From NCBI GenBank assembly GCA_028281635.1, contig JANQJM010000005.1, forward strand, positions 1 to 64,000: a DNA stretch of 64,000 nucleotides, in the 5' to 3' direction. The translations under genes and the position numbers were made by a program. The notes below the pieces were generated by a model. The model searched no databases, was not told the origin of the DNA, and saw only the letters and a list, made by a program, of their open reading frames with translations. This stretch comes from Pseudomonadales bacterium (GTDB lineage: Bacteria > Pseudomonadota > Gammaproteobacteria > Pseudomonadales > Pseudohongiellaceae). This document shows positions 9,664-63,684 of the stretch, piece by piece (positions within the stretch are counted from its first letter, which is position 1; every line of letters starts with the position of its first letter).

Positions 9664-12090
9664 TTATGCGATTCTCTCGTCAGTTGAAACCCGGCTTTTT
9701 TGAGAGACATCTGCCGGCAGGATCAATCTGAATACAGATCCGCTTCCAGCTTCGCTATCCACTAATATATCACCTCCTAGTATTTCGCTATGTTTTTTCA
9801 CCAAGGATAAACCCAGGCCCAGACCACCATGTTCACGGGTATTGGAATTGTCTGCTTGTTCGAAAGGTTCAAACAGAGTAGGGATTTGCCCGGTTTCGAT
9901 GCCGGTGCCCGTGTCAGAAACAGCAAACTCTAGTTGATCAAAGTCGGATTCCACCACGCGCTTTGCACTCAAACTCACTCTGCCAGACTTGGTGAATTTG
10001 GCCGCATTGTCGAGTAAGTGCATTAACAGATCAGTAAGTTTGTTCGGATCAGTCTCAATCTCACCGATGTCTTCCTGACATTCCACCAGCAGATGATTAT
10101 TGTTCGTTTTCATCTTTGGTTCAATTGCCTTGGCGATCTCCTGAAACAATGAATCTATAGCCACGATACGAGACTCACAGGTTTGTTCAGTGTCCAGTGC
10201 CTTCGTAAAGTTGACGATATCGGTAATCGTTTTCAACAACTGCTCACCGGCGTTATGGACCTTGTTTAGAAGTTCCAGTTGCGATGTGTCATTGTTGGGA
10301 GAAGTTTTTTCGATTAACAATTCACTATAACTAACGATAGCGGTAAGGGGTGTGCGTAATTCATGGCTCATATTGGAGAGAAATTGTGACTTCGCCTCGT
10401 TAGCTGCTTCTGCTTTCTGGTTAGCAGATATCAGGAACCGTTCAGTGTTTTTTGCTTCTGTTACATCGCGACTAGAGATAACGACGCCCACAACACGGTT
10501 GTTCTCATCCTTGTGAGGGTCAAACAACATCTCGAAACATCTAGGTTCTAATCCATGAAGACTATCCCAGGATTCAGTTTGCAAGCGCTCTCCCTTTAGA
10601 CAAGAGTCCAACAAGGGTTTCATTTTTTTGTTGAAGAATCTCTTGCCATGCACTTCCTGAATATGGTGACCGATAACCTGTTCTTGTGTTCTCCCAATGG
10701 TCTTCAGGTAGCTCTGATTTGCAGCCTGAAACACGTAGTTTCTATCCACAAAAATCATTAGCTCTCGCGTGGTCGAAATAATATGCCCAAATATTCGCAG
10801 ATCATGGCCCTGTTCTTTGACCTCCCTTTCCAGCGCAGTCTTGCGGAGCAACAGGGAATGCTCAGTTAATTTACGTTCCGTGATGTCTCTGGCGATTTTT
10901 GAAATTGCAACGACTTTACCTGAGTCATCGAAAATGGGGGAGCAAGTGACAGAGATTGGAAATAATGAACCGTCTTTTCGTTGCCGGACAGTTTCGAAAT
11001 GCTCTACTCGATTTCCAGACGAGATTTGCTCAATAATGCTCTTTTCTTCATCGGCAAGCATTGGTGGAAAAAGTATCAGTATAGACTTTCCAATAACTTC
11101 TTCAGCTTTGTAACCGAACATCTTCTCAGCCCCGAAATTCCAGCTGGTAATTATGCTGTCCAATGTTTTGCTGATGATGGCGTCATCTGACGTTTCAATG
11201 ATTGCCCTGAAGCGAGCCCGCTCCTCTTCTGCTTCTTTTCGATCACTAATGTCTTTGATGGTGCATATACATTTGGGTTGTCCCTGAACAGTTACTTCAA
11301 TAATTGAAAGATCCACCGGTAACTGACTTCCATCTGCTTTAACAATCTCAACGTCGCGCAAGAATGACCGTTTGTTGTTGGCGTCGCGATTGTCGAAGGG
11401 AAATCCTTGTAACAAGGGAATAAAACTGCTGATGGATTGTTTGACAACTCCTTCTTGAGTGCAGCCAAACAAGCTTTCTGCAGCCCGATTAGTTGATTCT
11501 ACTGCCCCGAATTTGTTAACGGTAATGATTCCATCGGAAGTATTGTCAACTAAGGCGCCTAGATACGACTGGTGATCTTCAAGCAGTTGGGTTCTGTCTG
11601 ATTGCGTAAACGCTTCCAATTGTAGTTGGACCAGTTTGCTGAGATCCCGCAACATCTCCAATTGACTGTCTGTCAATTCCCGGGGTTTGGTGTCAACTAT
11701 GCAAAGTGCACCGATCGGAAAACCCGAAGCTGTTGTTAGCGGTGATCCTGCATACATTCTTACGCCTGGTTCTCCAGTAACGAGGGGATTGTCTGCAAAA
11801 CGTTCGTCTTCCAGTGTGTCTGGAATGTAGAAAATATTGGACTGAAGAATGGTGTGACCACAAAAAGAGATGCTTCTATCTGTTTCGCAAGAATCTAGAC
11901 CATATTTAGATTTAAACCACTGTCTGTCCTTGTCAACCAGGCTTACGAGCGAAATAGGAACATCGAAAAGATGAGCTGTTAGGCGCGTGATGCAATCGAA
12001 GCGCTCTTCGGGCTCACTGTCGAGCAAGCTTAAGCGTGCAAGTTCGGTAAGCCGTTCCTGCTCATTTTCGGGGAAGGGTGTGATTAGCAT
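9664..12090 (-). CDS. GAF-PAS-PAS-PAS sensor histidine kinase
   Basis: N-terminal GAF (DRSISFCGHTILQ), PAS repeats, His[25 protein letters not shown], HATPase GTGI...GGLGLGLSLVKKH. Confidence 0.92.
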   Translation of the reverse strand: MLITPFPENEQERLTELARLSLLDSEPEERFDCITRLTAHLFDVPISLVSLVDKDRQWFKSKYGLDSCETDRSISFCGHTILQSNIFYIPDTLEDERFADNPLVTGEPGVRMYAGSPLTTASGFPIGALCIVDTKPRELTDSQLEMLRDLSKLVQLQLEAFTQSDRTQLLEDHQSYLGALVDNTSDGIITVNKFGAVESTNRAAESLFGCTQEGVVKQSISSFIPLLQGFPFDNRDANNKRSFLRDVEIVKADGSQLPVDLSIIEVTVQGQPKCICTIKDISDRKEAEEERARFRAIIETSDDAIISKTLDSIITSWNFGAEKMFGYKAEEVIGKSILILFPPMLADEEKSIIEQISSGNRVEHFETVRQRKDGSLFPISVTCSPIFDDSGKVVAISKIARDITERKLTEHSLLLRKTALEREVKEQGHDLRIFGHIISTTRELMIFVDRNYVFQAANQSYLKTIGRTQEQVIGHHIQEVHGKRFFNKKMKPLLDSCLKGERLQTESWDSLHGLEPRCFEMLFDPHKDENNRVVGVVISSRDVTEAKNTERFLISANQKAEAANEAKSQFLSNMSHELRTPLTAIVSYSELLIEKTSPNNDTSQLELLNKVHNAGEQLLKTITDIVNFTKALDTEQTCESRIVAIDSLFQEIAKAIEPKMKTNNNHLLVECQEDIGEIETDPNKLTDLLMHLLDNAAKFTKSGRVSLSAKRVVESDFDQLEFAVSDTGTGIETGQIPTLFEPFEQADNSNTREHGGLGLGLSLVKKHSEILGGDILVDSEAGSGSVFRLILPADVSQKSRVSTDERIA

Positions 12091-12176
12091 TATATTTTAC
12101 TTCGCTCTGACTTTTGGGTGCGCGAAAGACTGAGGTTTTGACCAAAAAACAAAACGATCAAATTAAGTGACTGGAT

Positions 12177-12203
12177 ATTACGACAGGGAATGGAATAACT
12201 TTA
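12177..12203 (-). promoter_or_regulatory. Sigma-28-like promoter TAAAG-N14-GTCGTAAT upstream of the kinase at 9664-12090
   Basis: Reverse strand TAAAGTTATTCCATTCCCTGTCGTAAT; same spacing and -10 as the site upstream of fliC. Confidence 0.65.
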
Positions 12204-12358
12204 GTTATATGGTTGCTGGGGGTTTTAGTCGGAACCAAAATACAGGGAGGGTAGTAAGTGTAGAAAGAAAAGGTGGAATTGAAAGTAACTGGAGGCCGCG
12301 GTTAAGTGCTGACAGACAGCCAGTGAGACTATCCCTAGTTCGGCCTAGGAGCTTCGAG

Positions 12359-13153
12359 CTATTGCCCAAGAATTTCTATTTCAATCTCTTGATAATCCCG
12401 AAGCAGGGGCTCCATGATTCGTTGAAATTCTCCTGACTCCACAACTTTTTGATAGGCCCATTCGAGTCTGTCGACGACTAATCTACTGGTTTCTTTGCTG
12501 ACTGAAATGTACATACTGTCGGCCATTTCTTCTAATCTTATGACGCCAACCAAATCGTTTTCATTGAAACCATTTCCACGCACAAACATTCCCGCATGTA
12601 GCTTGGTGTACGGAAACAAATCGATACGGCCTCTCTGTAGCATAACTATGTTGAGCGAGGGGTCTCGTACATACACTAGGTTATTAAACTCCTTGGTCTC
12701 CAGATAGTTTCCAACAACGTCTGCACGAATTACCCCAACTCGCGAATTCTTCGCTTCCTCAAGCGTTCGGGGCAGAAACTCCAGATTCTCCTTTAGACCA
12801 TAGAGGTAATAATCCAGTGGTAAAGTCTTACCAATCCAGTGGTACTTATGTTCCCTATCTTGAGACCTTGCCATGGAATAAACCATGACATTGGCTGAGT
12901 TATCGATTGCGTGAACAGCTCTGGCCCAGGGAACTAAGGAGATATCATAGTCATATCCAGCTTCATGCATTACCGCTCTCACCAAGTTTGTGACATGTCC
13001 AGTGACTGGCCCTTCATCCGAGTCATTTGCTATGTAACTGTTTGGCTCGGAAAGCTCAGTGTAGATCTGAATAAACACGTCATCTTCAGCGCTACTCAAA
13101 TACGATGACAGGGTTATAACACTTGAAATAAGGGTTTGTAGAACTCTCTTCAT
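12359..13153 (-). CDS. Periplasmic solute-binding protein, SBP_bac_3-like
   Basis: Signal peptide; GPVTGHVTNLVRAVMHEAGYDYDISLVPWARAVHAI is a typical extracellular solute-binding N-lobe. Confidence 0.82.
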   Translation of the reverse strand: MKRVLQTLISSVITLSSYLSSAEDDVFIQIYTELSEPNSYIANDSDEGPVTGHVTNLVRAVMHEAGYDYDISLVPWARAVHAIDNSANVMVYSMARSQDREHKYHWIGKTLPLDYYLYGLKENLEFLPRTLEEAKNSRVGVIRADVVGNYLETKEFNNLVYVRDPSLNIVMLQRGRIDLFPYTKLHAGMFVRGNGFNENDLVGVIRLEEMADSMYISVSKETSRLVVDRLEWAYQKVVESGEFQRIMEPLLRDYQEIEIEILGQ

Positions 13154-18807: not shown

Positions 18808-18834
18808 TAAAGTTTTTGGTATTTCTGGCGTAGT
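18808..18834 (+). promoter_or_regulatory. Sigma-28-like promoter TAAAG-N14-GGCGTAGT upstream of the kinase at 18954
   Basis: TAAAGTTTTTGGTATTTCTGGCGTAGT. Confidence 0.55.
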
Positions 18835-18953
18835 TAGTCTGAAACACTTGCCGAAGGGTTGTGAACTGAATCTTTTGGGAGACACAGCGGCGTATAAAAT
18901 TGTTAGCTGTCTGTGCTCAATGGGTCAGGGAGCTAAGTTTCCCTATTGCAAAT

Positions 18954-20336
18954 ATGCACAAGTCTGCTAACAAGATGATTTCCTCTCTCATAGATTTTTT
19001 TGTCTACAGGGGCGATGAGCGAATACCTGCTATCAGTGCATTTAGAGCGAAAGTACTGGTATTGTCCTCACTTTTTACAGCAGTGTTTCTCATTCCATTC
19101 TTGTTCCTGCGAGTCAGTTGGGAAGGAATCGCCGATATAAAAAACTGTGTTCTGTGGACGGCCCTGTTCATATTGGTGACAGCGCCCTTTATCTACAAAA
19201 AAACTCGATCAATCCGAGGTGTAGGCATTTATGTAAACTTCGGCTCCACTCTCGTTGCGATGACCTATGCATTTCTGGATGGTGGTTTCTATTCGACGGC
19301 ATTACATTGGTATCCTATTTTACCTTTGTTCGCTGTATTTTATTCAGGTGTGCGCTACGGGCTGGTTATTGCTGCCATTCTTTTCGTCAATGTTGTCTTC
19401 TTATACTACGCTCACGTAGCCGGTTTTATTCCTCCAATAACAATAAGCGAGGAAAGCATGACTCTGCTTCATTTCATCAGCATTGTATCGGTTGCTGCCA
19501 TTGTGCTGACCCTGGCTTGTCTTTATTTGTTCGGTCAGCAAACTATCCAGAAAGAGCTGGTGTTGGCTAACAGCGCAAAAAATGACTTCCTATCGGGTGT
19601 CTCTCATGAGCTAAGGACACCTCTTAATTCGATTCTGGGGTTTTCTGACGTATTGACTCGTGGCTACGTTGGCGATCTCAATGAAAAACAGGTCGAGTAC
19701 GTAGGGTATATCAATCTTTGCGGAGATCATCTACTGGCTCTAGTCGATGGATTATTGGATATAGCAAAGATTGAGTCAGGAAAATTTGAGCTTGAATTAA
19801 AACCAGTTTGTTTGCCAGAGTTGTTCGCCTCAGTACTTCATATCTATCGGAGTAAGGCTGAAGAAAAACAGACTAAGGCTTCGTTCACCGTAGATGATTG
19901 CATCGCTGAGTATCATTTTAACGTGGACGAAATCAAATTGACTCAAGTGATAATAAACCTGGTAGGCAACGCCATTAAGTTTTCACCGCCTGAAAGCACA
20001 GTGCTGATAGATGCAAGGTATGAAAAAGGCTCCGTCGTTATCGAAGTGATCGATAATGGGCCAGGAGTACCAGCTGAATTGCACGACAAGATATTTGATC
20101 GTTTTTTCCAAATAAATACAGCTTCAGCAGGAAAAGATCCAGGCGCCGGATTAGGTTTGGCTATTAGTCGATTTTTCATCGAAATGCACAGTGGCAAGCT
20201 TTACTTGAGCGAAGCGGATGAAGGTGCAGGAAGTCGGTTTGTTTGCGATATTCCCAGCGACAAATTGCAACCGATAGCAGGTACCAATGACGAATGGCGT
20301 GCAGCCAACAACGTTGTAGAAGGAGTCACGGTTTGA
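18954..20336 (+). CDS. Membrane sensor histidine kinase
   Basis: About six TM segments; [38 protein letters not shown]. The ORF track starts at a TTG (18900); ATG 18954 or 18975 is more plausible. Confidence 0.88.
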   Translation: MHKSANKMISSLIDFFVYRGDERIPAISAFRAKVLVLSSLFTAVFLIPFLFLRVSWEGIADIKNCVLWTALFILVTAPFIYKKTRSIRGVGIYVNFGSTLVAMTYAFLDGGFYSTALHWYPILPLFAVFYSGVRYGLVIAAILFVNVVFLYYAHVAGFIPPITISEESMTLLHFISIVSVAAIVLTLACLYLFGQQTIQKELVLANSAKNDFLSGVSHELRTPLNSILGFSDVLTRGYVGDLNEKQVEYVGYINLCGDHLLALVDGLLDIAKIESGKFELELKPVCLPELFASVLHIYRSKAEEKQTKASFTVDDCIAEYHFNVDEIKLTQVIINLVGNAIKFSPPESTVLIDARYEKGSVVIEVIDNGPGVPAELHDKIFDRFFQINTASAGKDPGAGLGLAISRFFIEMHSGKLYLSEADEGAGSRFVCDIPSDKLQPIAGTNDEWRAANNVVEGVTV

Positions 20337-20728
20337 ATACATCTGTGTTGGTGGTAGAAGATAATAAACTGAATCTCGAATTACTTGTTACCGTGCTCAG
20401 TTCCAACGGTTATGAAGTCTTGCCTGCGGAAGGTGCACTTACCGCGGTCGAAATTGCTCAGTCCAGGATACCGGAACTAATCTTGATGGATATTCAGATG
20501 CCGGATATAGACGGTTATATGGCTCTTGAGATGCTACGAGAGGATGAGAAAACAGCTAAGATCCCTGTTATTGCTGTTACTGGAAATGCCATGTCCCATG
20601 ATATCGAGAATGTCAAAAAGAAGGGCTTTGATAATTTTGTCACTAAGCCGTTCAGGATCGCCCACTTGCTCGATGTTGTCAGCCAAACCTTGCAGTCTGC
20701 AAATTTTGGTAGCCAAAGAAACCATTGA
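20333..20728 (+). CDS. Stand-alone receiver-domain response regulator
   Basis: TTG start overlapping the stop of the previous kinase; LVVEDNKLNLELL...PELILMDIQMPDIDGY...VIAVTGNAM...FVTKPF. No output domain. Confidence 0.9.
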   Translation: MNTSVLVVEDNKLNLELLVTVLSSNGYEVLPAEGALTAVEIAQSRIPELILMDIQMPDIDGYMALEMLREDEKTAKIPVIAVTGNAMSHDIENVKKKGFDNFVTKPFRIAHLLDVVSQTLQSANFGSQRNH

Positions 20729-24524: not shown

Positions 24525-24551
24525 TAAAGGAATTCATTGTATCGTCGTAAT
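24525..24551 (+). promoter_or_regulatory. Sigma-28-like promoter TAAAG-N14-GTCGTAAT upstream of the kinase at 24586
   Basis: TAAAGGAATTCATTGTATCGTCGTAAT closely matches the fliC upstream site TTAAGGAATTTATTGCAGCGTCGTAAT. Confidence 0.75.
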
Positions 24552-24585: not shown

Positions 24586-26121
24586 ATGTCTGTATTCTAT
24601 CCACCTCTGATTCAAGGCCTGGAGCCAATGAGTGGCTCACCCCCAGTGAGTGAGTTTGATTCGTGGGGTCGACTGTTAGATCTATTGGATGTTGCCGTCG
24701 CTTTGTTGGATGAAAGATTCTTTCTGCTGTATCGGAATGTCTATTGGGAACAATTGATCTCCAGACAAGAAATACCCAAGCCTGGCCAACCGATCTATTC
24801 CGGTAGCAACCTAAGTCAGAAAGAACTCTTACGCATTAACCGCGAAATGGTGAGTAACGGTCAATGGCAGGGAGTCATAACCTTAAATGACAGACCATTG
24901 TCAGCGAGAATCTTTCGATTTACAGATTTCGCATCAGAGGCTGGGGATCTCTCAAACGTGGCGTTTCTCATAACTGTGCAACCAGCAATCGATACTACAG
25001 CCCGAATGGCTGAAGCAAGCAATACTGCTCAGCAAAGAGATGCAATAGCTAGTCAGAAAATAGACATTTTGTCGCAAACCAGTCATGAGCTAAGAACACC
25101 TCTCAATGCAATTCTTGGCTTCGCACAACTGCTGGCAGCGGGCACTGACCTCTCCGTTGAACAACAGGACTATGTCCAGGAAATCAACTCGGCAAGCGCC
25201 TACTTGCTGAAATTAGTTAACAGGTTATTGTCTTTTTCCAAGACAAATCATGAGTATTCAGATCTAAAGCTGGCACAGGAGAACTTCAGATTTTCAGAGT
25301 TAGTTTCTGAATGTCAGTCGCTAGTTGAACCTCTCGCAACCAAGGCTGGCGTAAAAATACACTTCCATGGCGAAGACTCACCTTTGATGCTCGATAGGGT
25401 TCGGCTAAAACAAGTAATGCTCAACCTATTGTCTAATGCCATTAAGTACAACCGTGTGTCTGGAGAGGTAGTAGTACGTAGTTTTGTCGCTAAAAATTCC
25501 GTGACGCATATAGAGGTACAGGATACAGGAAAGGGCATCGCCAACTCCGTGATAGATACTATATTCAACCCGTTTGAGCGCTTAGGTGTTAAAGACGAGA
25601 AGGTTGAAGGAACAGGTATTGGACTGATGATAACCCGACGTCTGGTAGATTTGATGGGAGGTACAGTGAGTGTAGTGAGCGAGCCGGAGTCCGGGAGCGT
25701 GTTTTCCCTTGAGTTTCCCGACAGTCCAGCGACAACTACTACGCTCGATGGTTCAGGCGCAGCCGTGGTCTGGGTTGGTCAGTCATCCACTGCCTCTTCA
25801 TTTGTGCAACGCTTGAGTCAATTGCGCCCCGGACTGACCTTTTTGCAAACGGAATCAGTATGTTTGCATGATGAGGAGCGGTCTGAAGTGCTATCGACAA
25901 AACGCATTTTGGTGTTAATTGACGCCAGTGATTCTCAGTCATTGAATAAAGCCTATTTGCCAAACCCGGAATTCATGGTGAGTAACCACTTTCTGGTTTC
26001 GACGCAACAGGATTTTCACCAGTACAAAGAGCTGTATCCTGAACTAGCTATCGGGAATCTAAGAATCCCGATCTCTCCTGTCGAGTTCCTTTCTCTGGTC
26101 GATCGTCATCTGGCTGGATGA
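24586..26121 (+). CDS. Histidine kinase (PAS-like, HisKA, HATPase) with C-terminal degenerate receiver-like region
   Basis: [44 protein letters not shown]; tail lacks the N-terminal acidic pair expected of a receiver. Confidence 0.9.
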   Translation: MSVFYPPLIQGLEPMSGSPPVSEFDSWGRLLDLLDVAVALLDERFFLLYRNVYWEQLISRQEIPKPGQPIYSGSNLSQKELLRINREMVSNGQWQGVITLNDRPLSARIFRFTDFASEAGDLSNVAFLITVQPAIDTTARMAEASNTAQQRDAIASQKIDILSQTSHELRTPLNAILGFAQLLAAGTDLSVEQQDYVQEINSASAYLLKLVNRLLSFSKTNHEYSDLKLAQENFRFSELVSECQSLVEPLATKAGVKIHFHGEDSPLMLDRVRLKQVMLNLLSNAIKYNRVSGEVVVRSFVAKNSVTHIEVQDTGKGIANSVIDTIFNPFERLGVKDEKVEGTGIGLMITRRLVDLMGGTVSVVSEPESGSVFSLEFPDSPATTTTLDGSGAAVVWVGQSSTASSFVQRLSQLRPGLTFLQTESVCLHDEERSEVLSTKRILVLIDASDSQSLNKAYLPNPEFMVSNHFLVSTQQDFHQYKELYPELAIGNLRIPISPVEFLSLVDRHLAG

Positions 26122-26179: not shown

Positions 26180-26207
26180 TCAAGGCTTCCTCGCAAGCTG
26201 TCGTAGT
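26180..26207 (+). promoter_or_regulatory. Sigma-28-like promoter TCAAG-N15-GTCGTAGT upstream of the small ORF at 26241
   Basis: TCAAGGCTTCCTCGCAAGCTGTCGTAGT, ending 33 bp before ATG 26241. Confidence 0.6.
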
Positions 26208-26240: not shown

Positions 26241-26615
26241 ATGAGCAGCGATTACAGAGGCACAGTTGATCTGTCTTGGGTAAATAGTTCGGAAAATTCC
26301 GTCAAATCTAAGATTCTCCAGTTACCCTCTCACTCTGGCCAACAAAATCTTCGTAAAAGCAACTCGTTCTACGGATGGCTGCTTGTGAACGGAGACACAG
26401 AGGAGACGCTTGAGATCCAGAAAGAGTGTGCTCTGATGTTACTGGAGGGGGTTTCAGATCAACTACTACTTGACTGTGAAAAGCCTGTCTGCAACGAAGA
26501 TTCGTCGCCAGGTGACAGCAAGACTGGCGGAGCTGAGAATAAGTCCAAGACTTCAGAAAATCCCTCGCAAAAGACATGTCGAAACATTGATCCCAAGGAT
26601 ATTTACAATGATTGA
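26241..26615 (+). CDS. Small protein of unknown function, probably translationally coupled to the downstream hybrid kinase
   Basis: MSSDYRGTVDLSWVNSSENSVKSKILQLP...; overlaps the next kinase start by 8 nt (ATGATTGA). The ORF track starts at 26118, but the promoter-like site supports 26241. Confidence 0.55.
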   Translation: MSSDYRGTVDLSWVNSSENSVKSKILQLPSHSGQQNLRKSNSFYGWLLVNGDTEETLEIQKECALMLLEGVSDQLLLDCEKPVCNEDSSPGDSKTGGAENKSKTSENPSQKTCRNIDPKDIYND

Positions 26616-29600
26616 GCCGATCTATTGGATAGCCATCATGGTTCCAGTGCTAGCTGCAGGATGGCTTTTGAGTTCTCGTAAAGCAATGAATAAAGAACTG
26701 AAAGAGGCGCATCAGTTCTCTAAGAACGTAATCCGGGAAAATTCTGAATTAAAAAAATTTCGTCGAGAACTATTCGACTTCGTGCCAGATGGTTTGCTGC
26801 TGGTCAATGCCGAAGGCAATATCGTAAACGGCAACGACAAAATCTTTGATTTGTTTGGCTGGAGTATAGATGAACTGATCGGCAAGCCTGTTGAAACCCT
26901 GATGCCTGTAGCTGGGAGAAAGGCACATCGCAAGCTGGTTACAAAATTCATATCTGAAAATCGCGAAAGGCTGATGATGCCTGATCAACTGGCTGACAAG
27001 ATGATGGGGTTGCATAAGAGCAATCGATTGTTTGCCATCGAAATATCTCTTAAGCCAATTGAATACTTAGAACAACAAATGGTAGTCGCGTGTATACGAG
27101 ATATCTCTGACAGAATTAAAAAAAGTGAAGAGATAAGTCAAGTATTGGTCGCTCTTGATGCGTCTGAAGATGCCATATTTGTATTCGATGCTGACAATTG
27201 GGGTTTAACTTATGCCAATGCCGGCGCCACGAGTCAACTGGGATATAGCCGGGATGCTTTTCTTAGTATGAGCGCAAAAGATGTATTGGCTGAAAACGAA
27301 GGCACAACGATCTCCAAACTGTTTCGAGAAGCCATGCAGGCGGACGGGAAGACTCTGCACAGGGCGGGATCCTATCGAACCCAGGATGGCGATCTCATTC
27401 CTGTGGAAATTGCGACTCGTTATGTAAATGAAACCAAGAATCCCTACATCGTTTGCGTCGGTCGCGATGTATCTGAACGAATGCAGGCGATTGAATCACT
27501 CAAAACACACTCAGAGCAGTTGAATAGATTGAACCAGGAACTGGAAGCTGAGCGGCAGAACCTTGAATTTGAGGTACAGGAACGCACCAGTGAGTTGGAA
27601 AAGGCCAGACAGAAAGCGGAAGACGCGAATTTAGCTAAATCATCATTTCTCGCCGCGATGAGTCATGAGATTCGAACTCCCATGAACGGCGTAATCGGTA
27701 TGATTGAGCTGCTATTGATGACAGAACTTGATCAGAATCAGCAGCATCGGGTTACGACTTTACAAGAGTCTGCGTTAAGTTTGTTGACAATCATCGATGA
27801 AATTCTGGATTTCTCAAAGATAGAAGCTGGAAAAATAGAATTATCGAATGAGCCGGTAGATTTACCGCACACAATCGATTCTGTACATAGCTCACTGCTG
27901 GCAATTGCACAAAGCAAAAACGTGGAGTTGTATTGCTATCGAGATCCGAATCTCTCGCCTGAAATCATTTCGGACGCTCTCCGTCTAAGGCAGATAATTA
28001 CGAATCTAGTTGGGAACTCCATAAAATTTTCTAGTCGACAGAATCGCAAGGGTAAAGTCTCTATGCGGCTTGAAGTTGACTCCAGATGCGGTTTCAGAAT
28101 TATCGTCGAAGACAATGGAATCGGGATTGCCAAGGACTCTATCACGTCAATATTTGAACCCTTCAAACAACAAGACGCATCGACGGTTCATCATTTTGGT
28201 GGAACGGGTTTGGGTCTTCCAATTACGAAAGCTCTCGTGGAAAAGATGAACGGCAGCATTGAGGTTGAAAGCGAACTTGGAGAGTACACCAAATTTGTAG
28301 TGCGACTGCCTGTCGTGACAACTGACGATCCCGGCGAAGTTTCACTGCCAATAAGTCTGACTGGAATTTCGTGCCTACTGTATTGTGATCACAATCAACA
28401 GGTTAAGGATTGGGAGCAACTATTAGGCTGTGTTGGTGCAATTGTTACAGTCGCTGAGGATGAGGAAGACTTCGCCACGCGACTTAACTCGAACCCAGAT
28501 GCCGGCAATAAGCTGCTTGGATTATCCATTGGCGATGAAGTCGATATTGAGAGACTTGTCGCATTATCTAGAGAACCAGAAATCTGTGGATTACAGAAGT
28601 TATTGGTTGTTGCCTCGACAGCAGAAGCAGATATCGAAAAAGGAGATGGAATCATGTCTTTTGTTGAGGGAGACTCAAATCAAAACACTGCCTTCGCTCG
28701 AGTGCTGGAAGTGCTGGTTGATGAAATACACCTCTTCAAGCAAGCCGATTCAGCGACAACGACACAGAAACAGGAAGAGAGTGAGAGTGACGAAATAAAT
28801 TTAGTCCACCGACAAGTCCTTATCGCTGAGGATAATGTTATTAATCAGAATGTAATTAGCAACCAATTGGAAACTATTGGATATACATTCGACATTGCGA
28901 ACGATGGGGAAGAAGCGTTAGAGATGTGGCAATCAAACAGTTACTCCATGCTATTGACAGATTTACATATGCCGCGAATGGATGGTTATACCCTGGCGAC
29001 CCGGATACGAGAGCAAGAGCAGGGCGGTGCCAGAATGCCGATTGTTGCATACACTGCAAATGCTCTGAAAGGGGAGCGGGAGCGGTGCCTGGACTGTGGT
29101 ATGGATGAGTATCTGACGAAACCAATTGCCATAAAGGATCTGGAAAAAACACTAAATACCTGGGTTGATGAACGACAGTCCGAGAGTGCCGCCAATGACA
29201 ACAAGCCAGAGCTGCCAGTTAGAAATGAAAAAACTGTTCACGCTCAATCTGACGACCTGGCAGTTCTCAATGTCGGCGTTCTTGAGTCCTTAGTCGGTGA
29301 TGACCCAGAAGTTGTAAAGGATTTTCTCGTACAGTTTCGAGATGTAGCTGAGCAATCTGCGCAAGAACTCGAAAGGGCACTTGATGACAGAAGCTGGAAC
29401 GATGTCGTTGATATCGCACATCGGCTGAAGTCGTCCTCCAGGTCTGTTGGTGCCACGATTCTCGGGGATGCTTGTGCCACAATTGAAGAGTTGGGAAGCA
29501 AACATGACGGCGCAAACCTGCAAGAATTGAAATTGAAGTTTGAGGAAGCGCTTTATGACGTTTATCAAGCCTTACCTGTGAACTTGAATCTACCCAACGG

Positions 29601-29643
29601 ATTGAATTCGACAGATTCCAACTCGCCCGGTGTATTCAATTGA
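26608..29643 (+). CDS. Hybrid histidine kinase (TM, PAS, PAS, HisKA, HATPase, degenerate REC, REC, Hpt)
   Basis: SSFLAAMSHEIRTPMNGVIGMIELLL; VLIAEDNVINQNVIS...MLLTDLHMPRMDGY; Hpt DVVDIAHRLKSSSRSVGA. Start assigned to MIEPIYW at 26608. Confidence 0.93.
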   Translation: MIEPIYWIAIMVPVLAAGWLLSSRKAMNKELKEAHQFSKNVIRENSELKKFRRELFDFVPDGLLLVNAEGNIVNGNDKIFDLFGWSIDELIGKPVETLMPVAGRKAHRKLVTKFISENRERLMMPDQLADKMMGLHKSNRLFAIEISLKPIEYLEQQMVVACIRDISDRIKKSEEISQVLVALDASEDAIFVFDADNWGLTYANAGATSQLGYSRDAFLSMSAKDVLAENEGTTISKLFREAMQADGKTLHRAGSYRTQDGDLIPVEIATRYVNETKNPYIVCVGRDVSERMQAIESLKTHSEQLNRLNQELEAERQNLEFEVQERTSELEKARQKAEDANLAKSSFLAAMSHEIRTPMNGVIGMIELLLMTELDQNQQHRVTTLQESALSLLTIIDEILDFSKIEAGKIELSNEPVDLPHTIDSVHSSLLAIAQSKNVELYCYRDPNLSPEIISDALRLRQIITNLVGNSIKFSSRQNRKGKVSMRLEVDSRCGFRIIVEDNGIGIAKDSITSIFEPFKQQDASTVHHFGGTGLGLPITKALVEKMNGSIEVESELGEYTKFVVRLPVVTTDDPGEVSLPISLTGISCLLYCDHNQQVKDWEQLLGCVGAIVTVAEDEEDFATRLNSNPDAGNKLLGLSIGDEVDIERLVALSREPEICGLQKLLVVASTAEADIEKGDGIMSFVEGDSNQNTAFARVLEVLVDEIHLFKQADSATTTQKQEESESDEINLVHRQVLIAEDNVINQNVISNQLETIGYTFDIANDGEEALEMWQSNSYSMLLTDLHMPRMDGYTLATRIREQEQGGARMPIVAYTANALKGERERCLDCGMDEYLTKPIAIKDLEKTLNTWVDERQSESAANDNKPELPVRNEKTVHAQSDDLAVLNVGVLESLVGDDPEVVKDFLVQFRDVAEQSAQELERALDDRSWNDVVDIAHRLKSSSRSVGATILGDACATIEELGSKHDGANLQELKLKFEEALYDVYQALPVNLNLPNGLNSTDSNSPGVFN

Positions 29644-29849: not shown

Positions 29850-31421
29850 ATGAGATTGTCACCCATGTTTGACAACTTGACTGTTAGCTTCATCGTAGTC
29901 GATGAGCAGGGAACAGTTCGCGAGTTCAATCCAGCAGCGACCAACACATTCGGCTACCCAAGGGATTCTGCAGTAGGTCGCCCGATCGATTCGCTATTGT
30001 CTCTTTCTGAAGTATTCGCTTGTGATTCCTCTCCGGGGTCGGCCTCCGACACTGACTCCCATAGCAGCGATTTCAGGGTCGAAGGTGAAGTATATTGCCG
30101 TCGCATTGATGGAAGTCGTTTCAAAGGATATCTTTCACATGGGAGTTATGACGAGCATGGCGAACCACTCACGGCTTTGATAGTCCATACTGCATCTCAT
30201 TCTGCGAAATCAGACTCACGACTCTTGGAAGCGGCCCGTAAGGCCGATCAGGCGTCGAATGCGAAATCAGAATTTCTCGCCAATATGAGCCATGAGATCA
30301 GAACACCACTAAACGGGGTCATGGGTATGCTGGAGCTGCTGATGGGAACTACCCTGGACACCCGTCAGGAAAGCTTTGTTAAAACTGCCTATCATTCGGC
30401 TACTTCTTTGGTAACCGTAATTGATGCGATCCTGGATTTTTCAAGAATCGAGTCTAATGCCTTGGAAGTGAAACCAATGGCATTCAATGTGCGTGAGGAA
30501 ATTGAGCACAGTACTACAATTGCAATCCAGGGCAGCAGAGGCAAAGACATTGAAGTATCGTTCAGCCTGGAGCCCGATGTACCCAGCACTGTAAAAGGTG
30601 ACGTCGGTCACCTGAGACAAGTGTTAGTTAACCTACTTTCAAACTCAGTCAAGTTTACTGAGTCCGGTAGAATCGTCGTGAGTGTATCCCTTGTTGCGAG
30701 ATCGGATAGTAGTGTTCAACTTTTGTTTGAAGTTGAAGACACGGGGATCGGTATTCCTGATGATAAATTGTCTAACTTGTTTGAACCGTTTACTCAGGGC
30801 GATTCTTCCTCGACACGGGAGCACGGTGGTTCAGGTTTGGGGCTCACTATCGCGAAGCGCCTTATTGAGCTAATGAATGGGCAGATTGGGGCGCGTAGCA
30901 GGCAGGGGCACGGCACAACATTTTGGTTCACCTTGTGCTTTGAGTCCTTCACAGAAGATAGCAGCAACATTATAGAAAGCAGTAACTGGCTTCCTTCCCC
31001 GCAATTGCCTCCTAATCAAGATTCCGATGATCAGGAACCTCTAAACGATAAACGTGTGCTCGTAGTTGATGATGTGGCTGCGAATCGGCGTGTATGCACC
31101 GAGATGTTACGTAAACTGGGTGTAGAGGCCGATGTCGCCAGCAATGGCCGTGATGCGCTCGAAGCACTGTCTCTGGGTAGCTATGACCTGGTATTAATGG
31201 ACTGTCAAATGCCAGTGATGGATGGATACGATGCCACTCGCCAAATCAGACTACTTGAGAACCAGCAGAGTGAAGGCAAGCACCTGCCCGTAATTGCATT
31301 GACAGCGCATGCCATGGAAGGAGATCGTGAGGCAACTGTGCATGCTGGAATGGACGACTACCTTACCAAGCCACTAATGCTTTCTGACCTGGAATCAGTC
31401 ATCGGGCGCTGGCTCGCTTGA
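29850..31421 (+). CDS. Hybrid histidine kinase (PAS, HisKA, HATPase, REC)
   Basis: KSEFLANMSHEIRTPLNGVMGMLELL; GGSGLGLTIAKRLIELM; VLVVDDVAANRRVC...LVLMDCQMPVMDGYDATRQIR. Confidence 0.92.
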   Translation: MRLSPMFDNLTVSFIVVDEQGTVREFNPAATNTFGYPRDSAVGRPIDSLLSLSEVFACDSSPGSASDTDSHSSDFRVEGEVYCRRIDGSRFKGYLSHGSYDEHGEPLTALIVHTASHSAKSDSRLLEAARKADQASNAKSEFLANMSHEIRTPLNGVMGMLELLMGTTLDTRQESFVKTAYHSATSLVTVIDAILDFSRIESNALEVKPMAFNVREEIEHSTTIAIQGSRGKDIEVSFSLEPDVPSTVKGDVGHLRQVLVNLLSNSVKFTESGRIVVSVSLVARSDSSVQLLFEVEDTGIGIPDDKLSNLFEPFTQGDSSSTREHGGSGLGLTIAKRLIELMNGQIGARSRQGHGTTFWFTLCFESFTEDSSNIIESSNWLPSPQLPPNQDSDDQEPLNDKRVLVVDDVAANRRVCTEMLRKLGVEADVASNGRDALEALSLGSYDLVLMDCQMPVMDGYDATRQIRLLENQQSEGKHLPVIALTAHAMEGDREATVHAGMDDYLTKPLMLSDLESVIGRWLA

Positions 31422-31521: not shown

Positions 31522-33948
31522 TTAACGACGCAACAGCTTTGTAACAGTACGCTGAACTTCTTTAACTTTGATGGGCTTCGTAATGTATGCCTCAAACCCA
31601 CAATCCATGGCTGACTGAATGGCCTGCGGAGTCGCGTCTGCAGAGATAGCCACTACCGGTATCTGTTCCGTTTCCCGTAAGCCTCTTAGCTTTTCGACTG
31701 CTTCGATGCCATTAATGCCAGGTAAGTTTATGTCCATTAGAATACCATCCGGATTATGGGTTCTGGCCAAATCGATACCTGCTTCAGCATTGTGTGCTGT
31801 TAGTAGTCTGATATCAAAGGTAGTCAGCTTCGCCAAAATGTGCTTCATCAGGCTTTGATTGTCCGGGTCATCTTCAATATAGAGTAGTTGTCTGTGATTG
31901 ACATCTTCCACTGAAGTTTTGATCGAAGTCGATGAGGGTTTACCGGATAGTCTTTCAGATTCATCTCGAGCGCCACTTAATGGGATATCGACCCAGAACA
32001 CGCTTCCTTCTCCCACTTCACTCTCATAACCAATTTCTCCATCCAGCAGTTCTATCACTCTCTTGGCAATTGTTAGGCCGATGCCGGTCCCTTCGATTGG
32101 GCCTGTTTCACGACCCAGTCGTTCAAACGGGGTGAAGAGGTTTTTGCGGCGGTGAGGAGGGATGCCAGCACCGGTATCTGCCACGCTAATGCGTAACATG
32201 CCGTTGCTGTCGGGGCTGCAGCTAACCGTGACCGTACCACCTTCCTTGTTGTATTTGATGGCATTGCTTAGCAGGTTCAGTAGTAACTGTTTGAGTCTGG
32301 TCACATCGCTGGCAAGTGCTGGGGATGGGTTATCTGCACACCGTTGATCAATGATCCGAATATTTCTTTCGCTAGCTCTGAGTTGCACTTGTTCGAGACA
32401 GTCGTCGATTACCCGGTCAATTTCAACGTGGTCAATCTTTAAGGACATGCGCCCTTCCTCGATGGTATTGAGCTCCAGCACGTCAGTAACAAGGTTTAGT
32501 AGGTGCTCCCCACTGGACAAGATGTGACGAATATGAAGGATCTGCTCTTCAGTCATATTTTTTTCACTGAGTTCCAGCAACTGGGCGAACCCCAGTATGC
32601 AGTTGAGGGGTGTCCGCAATTCGTGGCTCATGCTGGCAAGAAATTCGCTCTTTGCGCGACTGGCTTTCTCGGCCTCTTCTTTTGCTGCTTCCAGCTCTTG
32701 TTGAGCTTCAGCCGCTTGCTGGTTAGCCAGTACTTGAGAAGTTACATCACTAATGCTGCCTCGATATCCCTGAAACTCTCCTCCGGGGTTAAAGACGGGT
32801 ATGCCGCTGATACTTACGTATCGCTCTCCCAATTCTCCATGCGAGTGTTTGAACTGCAGGTTTCTGAATAGTCTGCGATTTGTAAGCTCTTCCAAATAAG
32901 AGTTCCAGGTTGTTGTATCGGCAACACCTTCCTCAATGGCTCGGCAAGTGAGAGCGGTGAACACAGAGGCTGCACTTCCGTTATCAACAAGAAATGAATT
33001 CTCAATATTGCAAAACTCCAGATCAGCATTGGTCTCCCATATACCATCAGCAAGGGTGCTGGCGATATCGCGAAATCTTTCTTCGCTTAATTTAAGGGCG
33101 ATTTCGAATTCCCTGCGTTGGTCTATTTCGATCTGGAGTTGCTTTGTACGTTCTTTGACACGCCTTTCAAGATCTTGTTGGGCTATTCGCAACTGTTTTT
33201 CATATTCTCTATGCTCGGTTAAGTCGCGAGATATAGTAACCACAACCCAATGCCCATCCAGGTTTAAGGCGCTGGCTTTTACTTCGATAATAAATTGCCT
33301 TCCTGATTTCGATGTCAGTTCGAACTCCGAGAAGAAGCCTTTTGGTCCAGCAGCAATCGCTTCATCGATGAGATTTCTGACCACCTTGGGGCTAACATTC
33401 AGGATGTTTTCTGGACCAAGCTCCATGAACTCTTCGTTGCAATAACCAGAGCCATTTTGCGCTGCCTTGTTGGCGTAAATAAATCGTAGAGTTTCGGCAT
33501 CGACAATTGTTATTGCATCAGAAGTGGCATCGACTGCGGTTCTGAATTTATGCATCTCCGCTTCTTGTTGCTTGCGGGCTGTTACATTCCGAGTTGATGT
33601 AATAAGCATACGGCGACCAGCAACCCTGACTGCTCGTCGACAAACCTCGATCCAGTCACCTTTGGTGGGGCCACTTAATTCTTGAACTTCTACCGTCATT
33701 CCCTTGTCGCCAGCCGATTCGATTTCCCCAAAATCCATCCAGGCTGGATAGTCAGGGTGTTGGCAATTCATCATGGTTTCTGGCGCCATTGTTAACAGCT
33801 GTTCTCTCGTTAAGCCCTGCTTGGTCAAAGTCGCTTGATCCCCATACAGATAACATCCTGAATCGAAATCCTGGATAAAGAAGGAGTCGCCTAGAGCTCC
33901 GATTTCCTCGCACCTGTGAATCGGGTGCGTGTTCGATTTTATGTTCAC
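31522..33948 (-). CDS. Hybrid histidine kinase (multiple PAS, HisKA, HATPase, REC)
   Basis: [61 protein letters not shown]...[16 protein letters not shown]. Confidence 0.92.
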
Positions 33949-33984: not shown

Positions 33985-34263
33985 TTACTGATGCTGTGCG
34001 CAGTCTCTTTCTACGTCTTGGGCAAATGCTAGAACTTCACTAATAGCGAAGAGCAAAATGTCTGGAATGTCATCTCCAGGACTGATGGTGCTAAGCCGCT
34101 GACTCAATGCGAAGTTTTGCAAGACCGGGATGTTGTGATGGCGGGCAGTGCGCTCAATTAGTTTACCCAGGTCTCCATGTCCAGAAGCGACAACTGCCGG
34201 TGTTTGTTCTGCATCCAGCTTGATAGCAGAAGCGAAAAACTGATCAATTTCCTGGTCAGACAT
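33985..34263 (-). CDS. FlhB C-terminal-like (EscU/YscU-family) small protein
   Basis: TPAVVASGHGDLGKLIERTARHHNIPVLQNFALSQRLS...AISEVLAFAQDVE resembles the FlhB cytoplasmic domain but lacks NPTH; overlaps the fliK end. Confidence 0.82.
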   Translation of the reverse strand: MSDQEIDQFFASAIKLDAEQTPAVVASGHGDLGKLIERTARHHNIPVLQNFALSQRLSTISPGDDIPDILLFAISEVLAFAQDVERDCAQHQ

Positions 34264-35404
34264 GCTCAGCACCACCATTGACTAGCTGATGCTCGATGTT
34301 ACCTACTGTCAAACCAGCTTCCTGTAACCTTGCACGTAGTTTCGGGAAGTGTCGGTCCAGCAATTCTCGCGTTTGTGGGCGATCGGTGCCTACTTTGAGT
34401 TCCGCTGCAGAGCCTTCAATATTGATCTCCACTTGCAGCCAGCCCGCTGCAGGCAATGCCATGGAAAACTTTGCGCCCATCTGATTGCCATGATGTTTGT
34501 TTGTGTATTCAACCCGGTCTCGATAGAGCGTTATGGCGATAGTCAATACTTCCGACCCCACAATGACGGGTAGAGTGTGCATCCAGTACTCTCGGTCAGC
34601 GGACGACTCGTAGAGTGAGCGTTTCTGTTTAGCAATGATGTTGCGCAGTGACTCCTCCGTTGCCCACTTCAGTTCATTGACACTGTCTTCCGGCATGCCG
34701 TTGTCATGTACATCAGCATATTGGGCGCACTGCTGATAAGTTCTGCTTCTTGAATGCTCGCCATGACTAATACCGGTTCTGCCATGTAGCGACTTAAACA
34801 GTTGGAGCAAGATTGCCTTGATATCTGAACCTGCGATCAGGCTCTGCATCCCTGCATGATTGACCTGTAAAGCGAGCTTCTGCTCGAGTAGCAAACCTGA
34901 ATTGTTCAGGGCAAGTTTTAGTTTTTTTGGATCGGTAAGCTCTCTAAATTTCCCTATCGATTTATTCAGCGTCTGCAGGAGTCTCATGCTATTGGCAGGA
35001 ATAGCGGCGGAAGATGTTGCGCTTACCTTGAAAAGGTACGAATAAAAATCTGATACGTTGCCATTGGCGGCTGCGTAGCTGCGAGCTTGCGACAAGCTCA
35101 TCGCGTTTGATTGTACGCTCGACTCAGTAGTCTTTTTCTCCGCTGAATCAATTGGAGTGAGGATCACTTGTGGAGATAGGGCAATGACCTTTAGTCGTAT
35201 AGTGCTCCCCGGCTCAAGGGAAGTCTCGCTCAGGGGCATATAGTGCCTCCCATTTATTAGTAGCGAATGCCGACTTCCACGATGATTTTTCATTACCGTA
35301 GCAATCAAATTTTGATTGAGGTGCCAGTCGCTGCGGGCATCAGAGGCTCGCGCAATTCCGGCCGCACCTTTAGTCGTTTTTAAACCGATGCGTAGCGTCT
35401 CCAC
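34256..35404 (-). CDS. fliK: Flagellar hook-length control protein FliK
   Basis: C-terminal FliK-like domain (AAGWLQVEINIEGSAAELKVGTDRPQTRELLDRHFPKLRARLQEAGL) in a flagellar context. Confidence 0.8.
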   Translation of the reverse strand: METLRIGLKTTKGAAGIARASDARSDWHLNQNLIATVMKNHRGSRHSLLINGRHYMPLSETSLEPGSTIRLKVIALSPQVILTPIDSAEKKTTESSVQSNAMSLSQARSYAAANGNVSDFYSYLFKVSATSSAAIPANSMRLLQTLNKSIGKFRELTDPKKLKLALNNSGLLLEQKLALQVNHAGMQSLIAGSDIKAILLQLFKSLHGRTGISHGEHSRSRTYQQCAQYADVHDNGMPEDSVNELKWATEESLRNIIAKQKRSLYESSADREYWMHTLPVIVGSEVLTIAITLYRDRVEYTNKHHGNQMGAKFSMALPAAGWLQVEINIEGSAAELKVGTDRPQTRELLDRHFPKLRARLQEAGLTVGNIEHQLVNGGAEHV

Positions 35405-45034: not shown

Positions 45035-45881
45035 TGAGCATCCAGTCAAAGTCATTGCAGTATCCAGTGGCAAAGGTGGAGTCGGCAAGAGCAGCGTCGC
45101 GGTGAATCTTGCGGCTGGACTGGCCGGTATTGGCAAGTCGGTGATGTTGCTGGATGCCGATCTTGGTATGGCGAATGTTGACGTCCTGTTAGGGGTGAAG
45201 ACCAAGTTTGATTTACAGCACGTTGTTTCTGGTGAGCGCACATTGGACGAGATAGTTGTCGACTATTCCTCCGGGCTGAAAATTATTCCAGCGGCGTCTG
45301 GTATCTCAAAAATGGCAGACCTGTCACCGATGGAGCAAGCTAGCCTGATTCGAGCATTTGGCGAGCTGAATGATCTGGTTGATGTGATGGTTGTCGATAC
45401 GGCTGCAGGAATATCAAGCAGCGTGATTAGTTTTACCAAGGCATCACATGAGGTCCTGGTAGTGGTTTGTGATGAGCCTGCCTCGATTACTGACGCCTAT
45501 GCTTTGATTAAGGTCCTTAGCCAGGAGCATGGCATTAATCGGTTTCAGATAGTAGCGAATAGAGTCGTCGATGCAGAGCAGGGGCGAAAGCTTTACGAAA
45601 AACTGGTGTCCGTGGCGGACCTGTATCTCGATGCAGCATTGGGATATCTGGGGTGCATTCCAGAAGATAAGAAACTTAAAGAAGCCGTGGCTTCACAGTG
45701 CACAGTGGTTGAAAAGCATCCTTACAGCGCCTCTGGAATAGCGTTTCAAAACCTGGTTCGGAGAGTCGATGAGTTAACTCCATGTAAGCCTACCACTGGG
45801 TATATGGAATTCTTTGTTGAAAAAATTTTCAGGCCAGAAGTAAGTCATCAAGTTAGTAGCATAGGACAGATAGATGGTTAG
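45027..45881 (+). CDS. flhG: MinD-like flagellar number regulator FlhG/FleN
   Basis: VIAVSSGKGGVGKSSVAVNLAAGLA; LLDADLGMANVDVLLG; between flhF and fliA. Confidence 0.96.
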   Translation: MHSEHPVKVIAVSSGKGGVGKSSVAVNLAAGLAGIGKSVMLLDADLGMANVDVLLGVKTKFDLQHVVSGERTLDEIVVDYSSGLKIIPAASGISKMADLSPMEQASLIRAFGELNDLVDVMVVDTAAGISSSVISFTKASHEVLVVVCDEPASITDAYALIKVLSQEHGINRFQIVANRVVDAEQGRKLYEKLVSVADLYLDAALGYLGCIPEDKKLKEAVASQCTVVEKHPYSASGIAFQNLVRRVDELTPCKPTTGYMEFFVEKIFRPEVSHQVSSIGQIDG

Positions 45882-46602
45882 TGCAGTTCAGGTATATCTA
45901 GATGAAGACACTTCCTCTGAAACGCTGTTTCAGGAGCATTTGCCGCTGGTAAAGATTATTGCAAATCACATCAGTGTTCGGTTGCCGCCAGGAAAAACCG
46001 TAGATGATCTGATTCAAGTCGGAATGATAGGGCTGCTTGACGCGTCAAGAACTTATGTTCCAAACATGGGCGCGGAGTTCAAGTCTTATGCCAGCATTCG
46101 AATTCGTGGTGCCATAATCGATGAATTGCGGCGTGAAACCTGGATGCCACGCTCTGTGCAACAGATGTCTCGCAGTCTCTCAAAAGCGATTCAAAGCGTG
46201 GAGAACAGGTTGGGTCGAAGTGCTACAGATAGAGAAATTGCAGATGAGATGGGTGTTTCTATCGACGAGTACAACAGCATAGTCGAATCGGTGGCAGGCT
46301 GTTCTATTCTAAGTTTGGATGACACCAATTGCTTTAGCGAAATTGAAGATAAGGAAGAAACTCCTTTGCAGCATGCGCAGAGAGATTCACTCAAGTCAAC
46401 GCTGGCCGACGCGATCGGAGAGTTGTCCGAGCAAGAGCAGGCTGTTGTGGCCTTGTACTACGATTACGGGCTCAATCTGCGAGAAATCGGGCAGGTACTG
46501 GAGGTTAGCGAATCGCGTGCGTGCCAAATTCACAGTCAGGCGACCAGTCGTCTGCGCTCCAAAATGCTTGAAATGAAAATGCAGAACGAATTAAAGCAAT
46601 AA
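45874..46602 (+). CDS. fliA: Flagellar sigma-28 factor FliA
   Basis: LPPGKTVDDLIQVGMIGLLDASRTYVPNMGAEFKSYASIRIRGAIIDELR; region 4 NLREIGQVLEVSESRACQIHSQA. Confidence 0.97.
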   Translation: MVSAVQVYLDEDTSSETLFQEHLPLVKIIANHISVRLPPGKTVDDLIQVGMIGLLDASRTYVPNMGAEFKSYASIRIRGAIIDELRRETWMPRSVQQMSRSLSKAIQSVENRLGRSATDREIADEMGVSIDEYNSIVESVAGCSILSLDDTNCFSEIEDKEETPLQHAQRDSLKSTLADAIGELSEQEQAVVALYYDYGLNLREIGQVLEVSESRACQIHSQATSRLRSKMLEMKMQNELKQ

Positions 46603-46619
46603 CTTTATCCGGACGTATG
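46592..46619 (+). promoter_or_regulatory. Weaker sigma-28-like site TAAAG-N15-GACGTATG upstream of motC/motD
   Basis: TAAAGCAATAACTTTATCCGGACGTATG, overlapping the end of fliA. Confidence 0.35.
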
Positions 46620-50263: not shown

Positions 50264-50596
50264 CTATTTCTGGGCCGGATCTGTGACGCCGGTCTCCAAC
50301 TCAATGACTTTCGAAGCGATTCTTTCTCGATCAATTTCGAGTTCTCCAGCGTCGAATATCTGTTTGAATTCAGCAACAAGCTCTGTATTGATATCGGGGA
50401 TTTCGGCCAAGGTTCTTTCCACTCCCTGTAACTCAGACACTTTGTCAGTCATGCTGACAGTGTCTGCAGTATTGCTCTTCTGTGCATGCTCGGTGGTGGG
50501 AGGCGCCGGATTCTGGTTGACCGCCCTGGAACTCTCACGGCTGGAAGCGCTCGTCAGGTTCCCCGGTAATTTTATGGGTTGAATATCATTACTCAT
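50264..50596 (-). CDS. flgM: Anti-sigma-28 factor FlgM
   Basis: MSNDIQPIKLPG... with C-terminal helices DINTELVAEFKQIFDAGELEIDRERIASKVIELE. Confidence 0.88.
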   Translation of the reverse strand: MSNDIQPIKLPGNLTSASSRESSRAVNQNPAPPTTEHAQKSNTADTVSMTDKVSELQGVERTLAEIPDINTELVAEFKQIFDAGELEIDRERIASKVIELETGVTDPAQK

Positions 50597-50643: not shown

Positions 50644-50671
50644 ACTACGACAGTAAATTTAAATAACTTTA
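50644..50671 (-). promoter_or_regulatory. Sigma-28-like promoter TAAAG-N15-GTCGTAGT upstream of flgM
   Basis: Reverse strand TAAAGTTATTTAAATTTACTGTCGTAGT. Confidence 0.7.
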
Positions 50672-52124: not shown

Positions 52125-52126
52125 CG

Positions 52127-61717: not shown

Positions 61718-61744
61718 TTAAGGAATTTATTGCAGCGTCGTAAT
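61718..61744 (+). promoter_or_regulatory. Sigma-28-like promoter TTAAG-N14-GTCGTAAT upstream of fliC
   Basis: TTAAGGAATTTATTGCAGCGTCGTAAT, 99 bp before the flagellin start. Confidence 0.7.
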
Positions 61745-63580: not shown

Positions 63581-63604
63581 TGGTTGGTTGAATCAAAGAG
63601 AGTT

Positions 63605-63630
63605 AGTACAGCCCCATTAGGGGCTGTACT
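63605..63630 (+). terminator. Hairpin after fliC, probable terminator or transcript-stabilising stem
   Basis: AGTACAGCCCC-ATTA-GGGGCTGTACT: perfect 11-bp stem, 4-nt loop; T-tract weak. Confidence 0.75.
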
Positions 63631-63656
63631 TGCTTCCGGTTCAAAGGATAGTTGAA

Positions 63657-63684
63657 TCAAAATACTTAAGAGAAGGGACGTAGC
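63657..63684 (+). promoter_or_regulatory. Sigma-28-like promoter TCAAA-N15-GACGTAGC upstream of flaG
   Basis: TCAAAATACTTAAGAGAAGGGACGTAGC, 28 bp before flaG. Confidence 0.45.

Follow-up and report, generated by a model that had tools for sequence, protein, structure and literature searches.

A FliA-type promoter probably shared by late flagellar genes and sensor histidine kinase genes in a Pseudohongiellaceae bacterium

The biology of the flagellar sigma factor FliA (sigma-28) and its anti-sigma factor FlgM is well established (summarised in PMC5085249 and PMC5655016), and FliA regulons that hold chemoreceptors and a few enzymes of cyclic di-GMP (c-di-GMP) metabolism are already known. The E. 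coli FliA regulon includes yhjH and ycgR, 30 of the 52 FliA sites in that species are intragenic, and a text search of the same FliA map for 'histidine kinase' or 'sensor kinase' came back empty (PMC4183435). The phosphodiesterase BifA of Pseudomonas putida is FliA-dependent (PMC5026340), as is the Legionella GGDEF gene lpp0952 (PMC5655016). Here we analysed the first 64,000 nucleotides of contig JANQJM010000005.1 from an uncultured Pseudohongiellaceae bacterium (GCA_028281635.1), referred to as the window, in which a FliA-type promoter element precedes late flagellar genes as well as genes of an island of histidine kinases (HK1 to HK10). Sequence comparison indicates that the FliA late-gene promoters very probably extend to a set of these kinases. 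The arrangement resembles the E. coli and Pseudomonas FliA class 3/class IV regulons in its FliA/FlgM pair and in its sites at flgM, fliC, mot, fliS, chemotaxis and c-di-GMP genes, but it differs from the E. coli regulon in the probable membership of several multi-domain sensor kinases and in a -10 box that reads GTCGTAA instead of GCCGATAA.

Three Pseudomonas systems offer further comparison. The HptB/HsbR/HsbA/HsbD pathway likewise ties hybrid kinases and c-di-GMP to the FlgM/FliA checkpoint. Its hybrid kinases feed one relay, and in Pseudomonas other than P. aeruginosa the genes share the flagellar region with fliK (PMC5085249). However, the kinases of that pathway act upstream of FlgM/FliA, whereas those described here appear to be FliA targets. 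By Pfam, no stand-alone Hpt protein (HptB), REC-phosphatase (HsbR) or STAS anti-anti-sigma protein (HsbA) was found among the island genes (they were not searched for genome-wide), and the sole Hpt domain of the island lies within HK8. In the P. putida CfcA-CfcR system, too, a multisensor hybrid histidine kinase acts via a receiver protein that carries domains of c-di-GMP enzymes (PMC6849547). CfcR is a cyclase under RpoS, ANR and FleQ, whereas the candidate output here is a REC-EAL protein whose gene carries a FliA-type site. Finally, the chemotaxis-tied phosphodiesterase of the P. aeruginosa Pch/DipA-CheA system sets c-di-GMP in flagellated cells (PMC3861689), but Pch has no receiver domain and its partner is CheA, not FliA-driven hybrid kinases. 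A literature search for a FliA-controlled set of multi-sensor hybrid kinases found no report, with most subscription journals outside its scope.

All nine sites at which a first-pass annotation of this DNA had placed the element are present in the window sequence. Its minus-strand coordinates were one base off and are corrected in the list below.

12178..12203, minus strand: FliA-type promoter of HK1, TAAAG-N14-GTCGTAA, start 87 base pairs (bp) downstream
18808..18833, plus strand: FliA-type promoter of HK4, TAAAG-N14-GGCGTAG
24525..24550, plus strand: FliA-type promoter of HK7, TAAAG-N14-GTCGTAA, ATG 35 bp downstream
26180..26206, plus strand: FliA-type promoter of a unit of a small open reading frame (ORF) and HK8, TCAAG-N15-GTCGTAG, small ORF 34 bp downstream
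35440..35466, minus strand: FliA-type promoter of fliK, TAAAG-N15-GTCGTAG
46592..46618, plus strand: FliA-type promoter of motC, TAAAG-N15-GACGTAT, overlapping the end of fliA
50645..50671, minus strand: FliA-type promoter of flgM-flgN-ycgR, conserved in six species
61718..61743, plus strand: FliA-type promoter of fliC, conserved in six species
63657..63683, plus strand: FliA-type promoter of flaG, the weakest, TCAAA-N15-GACGTAG, 29 bp to the ATG at 63713

A strict pattern search of both strands of the window returned nine matches, all at these sites, whereas 200 dinucleotide shuffles averaged 0.34 matches and never gave more than 2. When the gap was scanned from 5 to 30, matches were confined to gaps 14 and 15 (3+1 and 3+2, respectively), besides one stray at gap 6. 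Every site is in the sense orientation, with 29–120 bp between the end of the -10 box and the start codon, confirming the direction and the distance of roughly 30–120 bp given earlier. Eight of the nine either lie in non-coding DNA or reach no more than 11 bp into the end of a gene. The ninth, that of flaG, overlaps solely a probably spurious antisense ORF, and the FlaG-like sequence downstream of it was recognized by eye. Across the genome, viewed through pattern searches and sampled stretches, TAAAG-N14/15-GNCGTAR has 15 matches, six of them on this 69-kb contig, which makes up 1.6% of the genome (binomial P ~8e-8); the off-contig matches are mostly intragenic. In what follows, the genome itself is G000, its relatives carry G-numbers, contigs C-numbers and sampled stretches L-numbers.

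To score the sites, we built a weight matrix from 17 late flagellar sites, with no kinase site among them. As null we took the highest score in the upstream region of each of 267 other genes of the same genome (median -3.0, 99th percentile 7.6, maximum 12.0), and it is conservative because some of the sampled background had been picked for holding pattern hits. The kinase sites scored 23.6 (HK1), 23.4 (HK7), 16.6 (HK4) and 16.3 (the small-ORF/HK8 unit), and thus outscored all 267 regions. Among the flagellar sites, flgM reached 24.5, fliC 22.4, fliK and motC 17.6 each, and flaG, the lowest, 11.7; the motC site had rightly been called weaker but is still significant against the null maximum. 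A second matrix was trained on the fliC, flgM and fliK promoters of other species alone, in line with a check suggested by the first-pass annotation. It ranked the kinase sites of the window first, third, fifth and sixth, beside those of fliC and flgM (HK1 24.4, flgM 23.9, HK7 23.8, fliC 23.0, HK4 17.5, HK8 unit 16.4, motC 15.3), with the fliK site at 11.8. For this matrix 0.2 sites scoring at least 14 are expected per 64 kb, and the null maximum was 14.8. By shuffles, gene-level null and relatives-only matrix alike, the presence of the same element before kinase transcription units exceeds chance. Scans of the kinase island for sigma-70 promoters and terminators gave nothing above chance level.

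A FliA-family sigma factor and FlgM are encoded in the same genome, both within the window, together with the following flagellar genes.

45874..46602, plus strand: fliA (sigma-28), region 2.4 PRSVQQM, not PRSVRRN or PRSVHRN
50264..50596, minus strand: flgM (anti-sigma-28), PF04316
61826..63580, plus strand: fliC (flagellin), by sequence and homologues
34256..35404, minus strand: fliK, Flg_hook PF02120
33985..34278, minus strand: flhB2, a homologue of the FlhB C-terminus overlapping fliK, PF01312
49033..49734, minus strand: gene of the flgM operon for a PilZ protein of the YcgR type, a c-di-GMP flagellar brake, PF07317 and PF07238

In each of the six flagellated species for which both genes were readable (G000, G061, G089, G039, G040 and G013), the element stands ahead of fliC and of flgM, at 80–100 bp from fliC and 33–60 bp from flgM in the genus, and it precedes fliK in four (G000, G061, G089 and G065). 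Its -35 box (TAAAG/TTAAG/TCAAG) and spacing match sigma-28. The canonical sigma-28 consensus, quoted as TAAAGTTT-N11-GCCGATAA (PMC7286023), does not fit at the -10 box, where the genus has GTCGTA(A/G/T). Relatives from another family retain the canonical form, as seen at fliC of the outgroup G025 (TAAAG...GCCGATA). Residues of sigma-28 region 2.4 contact the -10 element, and this region of FliA reads PRSVQ[QH][MK] in the genus, PRSVRRN in E. coli and PRSVHR[NK] in the outgroups. The simplest reading of these comparisons is that the element would be the genus's own lineage-specific FliA promoter. We propose that sigma factor and -10 box may have drifted together, giving the consensus T(A/T/C)AAG-N14/15-GTCGTA(A/G/T) in the genus. 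As an observation in its own right, region 2.4 and the -10 box (GCCGATAA to GTCGTAA) change in step, a possible case of co-evolution between a sigma factor and its promoters. A small gene near the ycgR-flgN-flgM operon (48406-48822) belongs to no Pfam family and has a counterpart of 63% identity in G061.

The kinases and associated genes to which the regulon would extend are these.

9664..12090, minus strand: HK1, GAF-PAS-PAS-PAS-HisKA-HATPase, SHELRTP type (Pfam, histidine box)
18900..20336, plus strand: HK4, membrane HisKA-HATPase kinase, SHELRTP type, likely start ATG 18954
20294..20728, plus strand: single-domain response regulator overlapping HK4, probably in the same operon (Pfam, overlap)
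24586..26121, plus strand: HK7, HisKA-HATPase, SHELRTP type (Pfam, histidine box)
26241..26615, plus strand: small ORF of 124 amino acids, no Pfam match, downstream of the FliA-type site and overlapping the HK8 start
26608..29643, plus strand: HK8, hybrid with transmembrane (by eye), PAS-PAS-HisKA-HATPase-REC-Hpt parts (Pfam, orthologues)
29850..31421, plus strand: HK9, PAS-HisKA-HATPase-REC hybrid without a site of its own (Pfam)
31522..33948, minus strand: HK10, PAS-HisKA-HATPase-REC hybrid (Pfam, orthologues)

The window kinases with a SHE(L/I)RTP box have their own sites (HK1, HK4, HK7 and HK8) or lie in or beside a FliA unit (HK10 and HK9). HK10 is on the same strand as flhB2, 36 bp behind it, and probably belongs to the fliK operon. 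HK9 is possibly read through from HK8, because only 6 bp separates the two in G089. No site was found immediately upstream of the AHDFNN/AHEFNN kinases HK2, HK3, HK5 and HK6 (four of the ten window kinases), and HK5 could be reached by read-through from HK4. The C-terminal stretch of HK7 is possibly a degenerate receiver. At the position of the small ORF, G061 has a different ORF of 230 amino acids.

The link between element and kinases recurs in relatives. HK10, HK7, HK8 and HK9 have a set of orthologues in both G061 and G089, and the first three also in G065. G061 has a FliG 87% identical to that of G000 and an HK7 orthologue of 44% identity, which carries the exact site TAAAGGTTGTTGATTCTTTGTCGTAA 37 bp before its start. 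This site forms an island of identity, at nearly the same spacing, in an upstream alignment of which the rest is barely alignable. A second exact site in G061 lies ahead of the small ORF and HK8, and the counterpart site of its HK4 homologue is weaker (10.3). The kinases of G089 are not beside fliK but behind cheB, in the order site, REC-EAL, receiver, HK10 and HK7, then site, HK8 and HK9. The G065 order is HK10, HK7, REC-EAL, site and HK8. Homologues of the kinases in G057, G070 and G088, where no FliG was found, have no site. HK8-like paralogues in G013, G039 and G061 (C45) have none either, and the regulon therefore takes in only some of the related kinases. A search for HK7 orthologues in 38 relatives gave nothing above 41% identity outside G000, as neither G061 nor G089 was among the 38; genus-wide searches found them. 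A G017 kinase near fliK was ruled out as a counterpart, being convergent with fliK, without a site and without orthology. Conservation at orthologous kinases, which the first-pass annotation had suggested checking, is thus seen at the HK7 and HK8 units of G061 and G089, and its claim of one FliA-type promoter common to late flagellar genes and kinases is upheld by the independent matrix, by the relatives and by its absence in non-flagellated genomes.

Further candidate targets lie outside the window. A site precedes fliS just past its end (contig position 66276). The chemotaxis cluster of the genome is on C39, and the idea that the kinases compensate for lost chemotaxis, raised by the lack of che genes after fliA, was therefore rejected. 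Adjoining this cluster are two divergent REC-EAL genes (L027:6644-7924, minus strand; L027:8273-9475, plus strand) with FliA-type sites between them that score 17.4 and 6.3; the cheY site scores 10.0. One of the two, that with the site scoring 17.4, is the orthologue of the REC-EAL gene that lies within the kinase group of G061, G089 and G065; in these three relatives the kinases are thus genetically linked to a receiver protein that also has a c-di-GMP enzyme domain. On C225, a site scoring 22.2 lies 87 bp before a 346-amino-acid gene without Pfam match (L264:372-1526), directly upstream of a fleQ-like gene. Kinase sites were also found ahead of a PAS-PAS kinase in G089 (L259:3-1508, minus strand; 24.2) and a kinase in G061 (L252:1709-3100, plus strand; 15.3). 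The other intergenic sites of G061 and G089 precede genes for CBS-GGDEF (L246:411-1400, minus strand; 20.4), REC-HDOD (15.5), EAL-HDOD (21.2), REC-nucleotide cyclase (18.9), YcgR-PilZ (15.1), PAS-HAMP chemoreceptor-like (15.8) and hemerythrin (10.0) proteins and one unknown protein (18.0). The CBS-GGDEF protein may be a diguanylate cyclase that shares its regulon with the phosphodiesterases. In genomes without flagella, intergenic matches lay ahead of unrelated genes. The kinase signalling layer envisaged by the first-pass annotation thus stands in that the kinases share a FliA-type promoter, but the regulon is wider. Because it includes, here or in relatives, REC-EAL, GGDEF, REC-HDOD, EAL-HDOD, PilZ and chemoreceptor-like genes, the layer is likely one of kinase-to-c-di-GMP and chemotaxis signalling. 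The probable place of HK10 in the fliK operon, the fliS site and the targets on other contigs go beyond what had been noted before.

Several observations weigh against this picture, and some of them would suit chance matches, without a role, to a short degenerate motif beside flagellar genes. Bare-pattern counts genome-wide are not above but below the reversed-pattern control. As in E. coli, high-scoring matches occur within genes (21.6 in L029, 14.5 within HK8 of G061), and a site score alone is therefore not proof. HK1, which has the best site, lacks a full-length orthologue in 84 genus genomes with which it could be compared, and the HK4 site is poorly conserved, its counterpart in G061 being weak. 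In G065 the site ahead of HK8 is also weak (7.0), and the operon membership of HK10, HK9 and HK8 was judged from spacing. The four kinase sites nevertheless beat every other upstream region scored, stand beside fliC and flgM in an independent matrix, and recur at orthologous kinases despite changed gene order while missing from non-flagellated genomes. Given the shuffles, gap scan, gene-level null and other-species matrix, a chance origin was rejected as very improbable. It is likewise very improbable that the element belongs to a factor other than FliA, such as another sigma-70-family sigma factor co-regulating late flagellar genes. The -10 box is not the canonical GCCGATAA and other sigma factors are numerous in the genome, but the genes behind the element (flgM, fliC, fliK, motC and fliS) are mostly the classical FliA set, the -35 box and spacing are of the sigma-28 type, and the genus with the altered -10 box also has a different FliA region 2.4.

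Other alternatives accept the sites but give them less weight. Other promoters could account for most kinase transcription whatever the conditions, with FliA only as a boost, which we consider unlikely. The lack of sites at HK2, HK3, HK5 and HK6 would agree with it, as would sigma-70-like matches, though these are not above chance. Near HK7 the FliA site is the sole strong promoter-like feature seen, a weak point against this reading because sigma-70 and RpoN promoters were poorly modelled. It is possible, if on balance doubtful, that the promoters are FliA-dependent while the kinases are ordinary chemotaxis or flagellar accessory sensors with no dedicated c-di-GMP relay, their output going to other genes or CheY. 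The position of the G089 cluster directly behind cheB and the sites at chemoreceptor-like genes speak for this. Against it are the REC-EAL gene with the same type of promoter embedded among the kinases in three relatives, the YcgR gene in the flgM operon, and the failure to find a DNA-binding response regulator among the window island genes examined.

We favour a reading in which FliA would drive fliC, flgM-flgN-ycgR, fliK, motCD, fliS and flaG together with the SHE(L/I)RTP-type kinases HK1, HK4 with its receiver, HK7 and the small-ORF/HK8 unit, as well as HK10 as part of the fliK operon and, possibly by read-through, HK9. Export of FlgM at hook completion would free FliA, and the kinases would rise with flagellin; from FliA/FlgM biology we infer that they are made after hook completion. 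Cues would be read by their GAF, PAS or membrane domains, and phosphate would go on to receiver proteins, partly via the REC-Hpt relay of HK8. The best candidate for the main output is the REC-EAL protein, because its gene has a site of its own and, in relatives, is located among the kinases. It would lower c-di-GMP, at a level to be read by the FliA-controlled YcgR brake as swimming begins. Gene linkage gives such a relay from the kinases through REC-EAL to c-di-GMP close to an even chance of being correct. Slightly less than an even chance goes to the full proposal of a checkpoint-gated phosphorelay, in which hybrid kinases, receiver, REC-EAL protein and YcgR may form one FliA regulon, set by hook completion for the c-di-GMP level of the swimming state, as a module that persists after a move out of the flagellar cluster and into the chemotaxis cluster, and whose sigma factor and -10 box co-evolved.

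The proposed loop would extend the known positive loops between FliA and phosphodiesterases (yhjH, PMC4183435; BifA, PMC5026340) by sensory input. The regulon predicts a partner for the orphan kinases in the REC-EAL protein, and the paired change in FliA region 2.4 and the -10 box would offer a natural case of sigma-factor/promoter co-evolution. If the proposal is true, the assembly of a single organelle gates which environmental signals are open to sensing.

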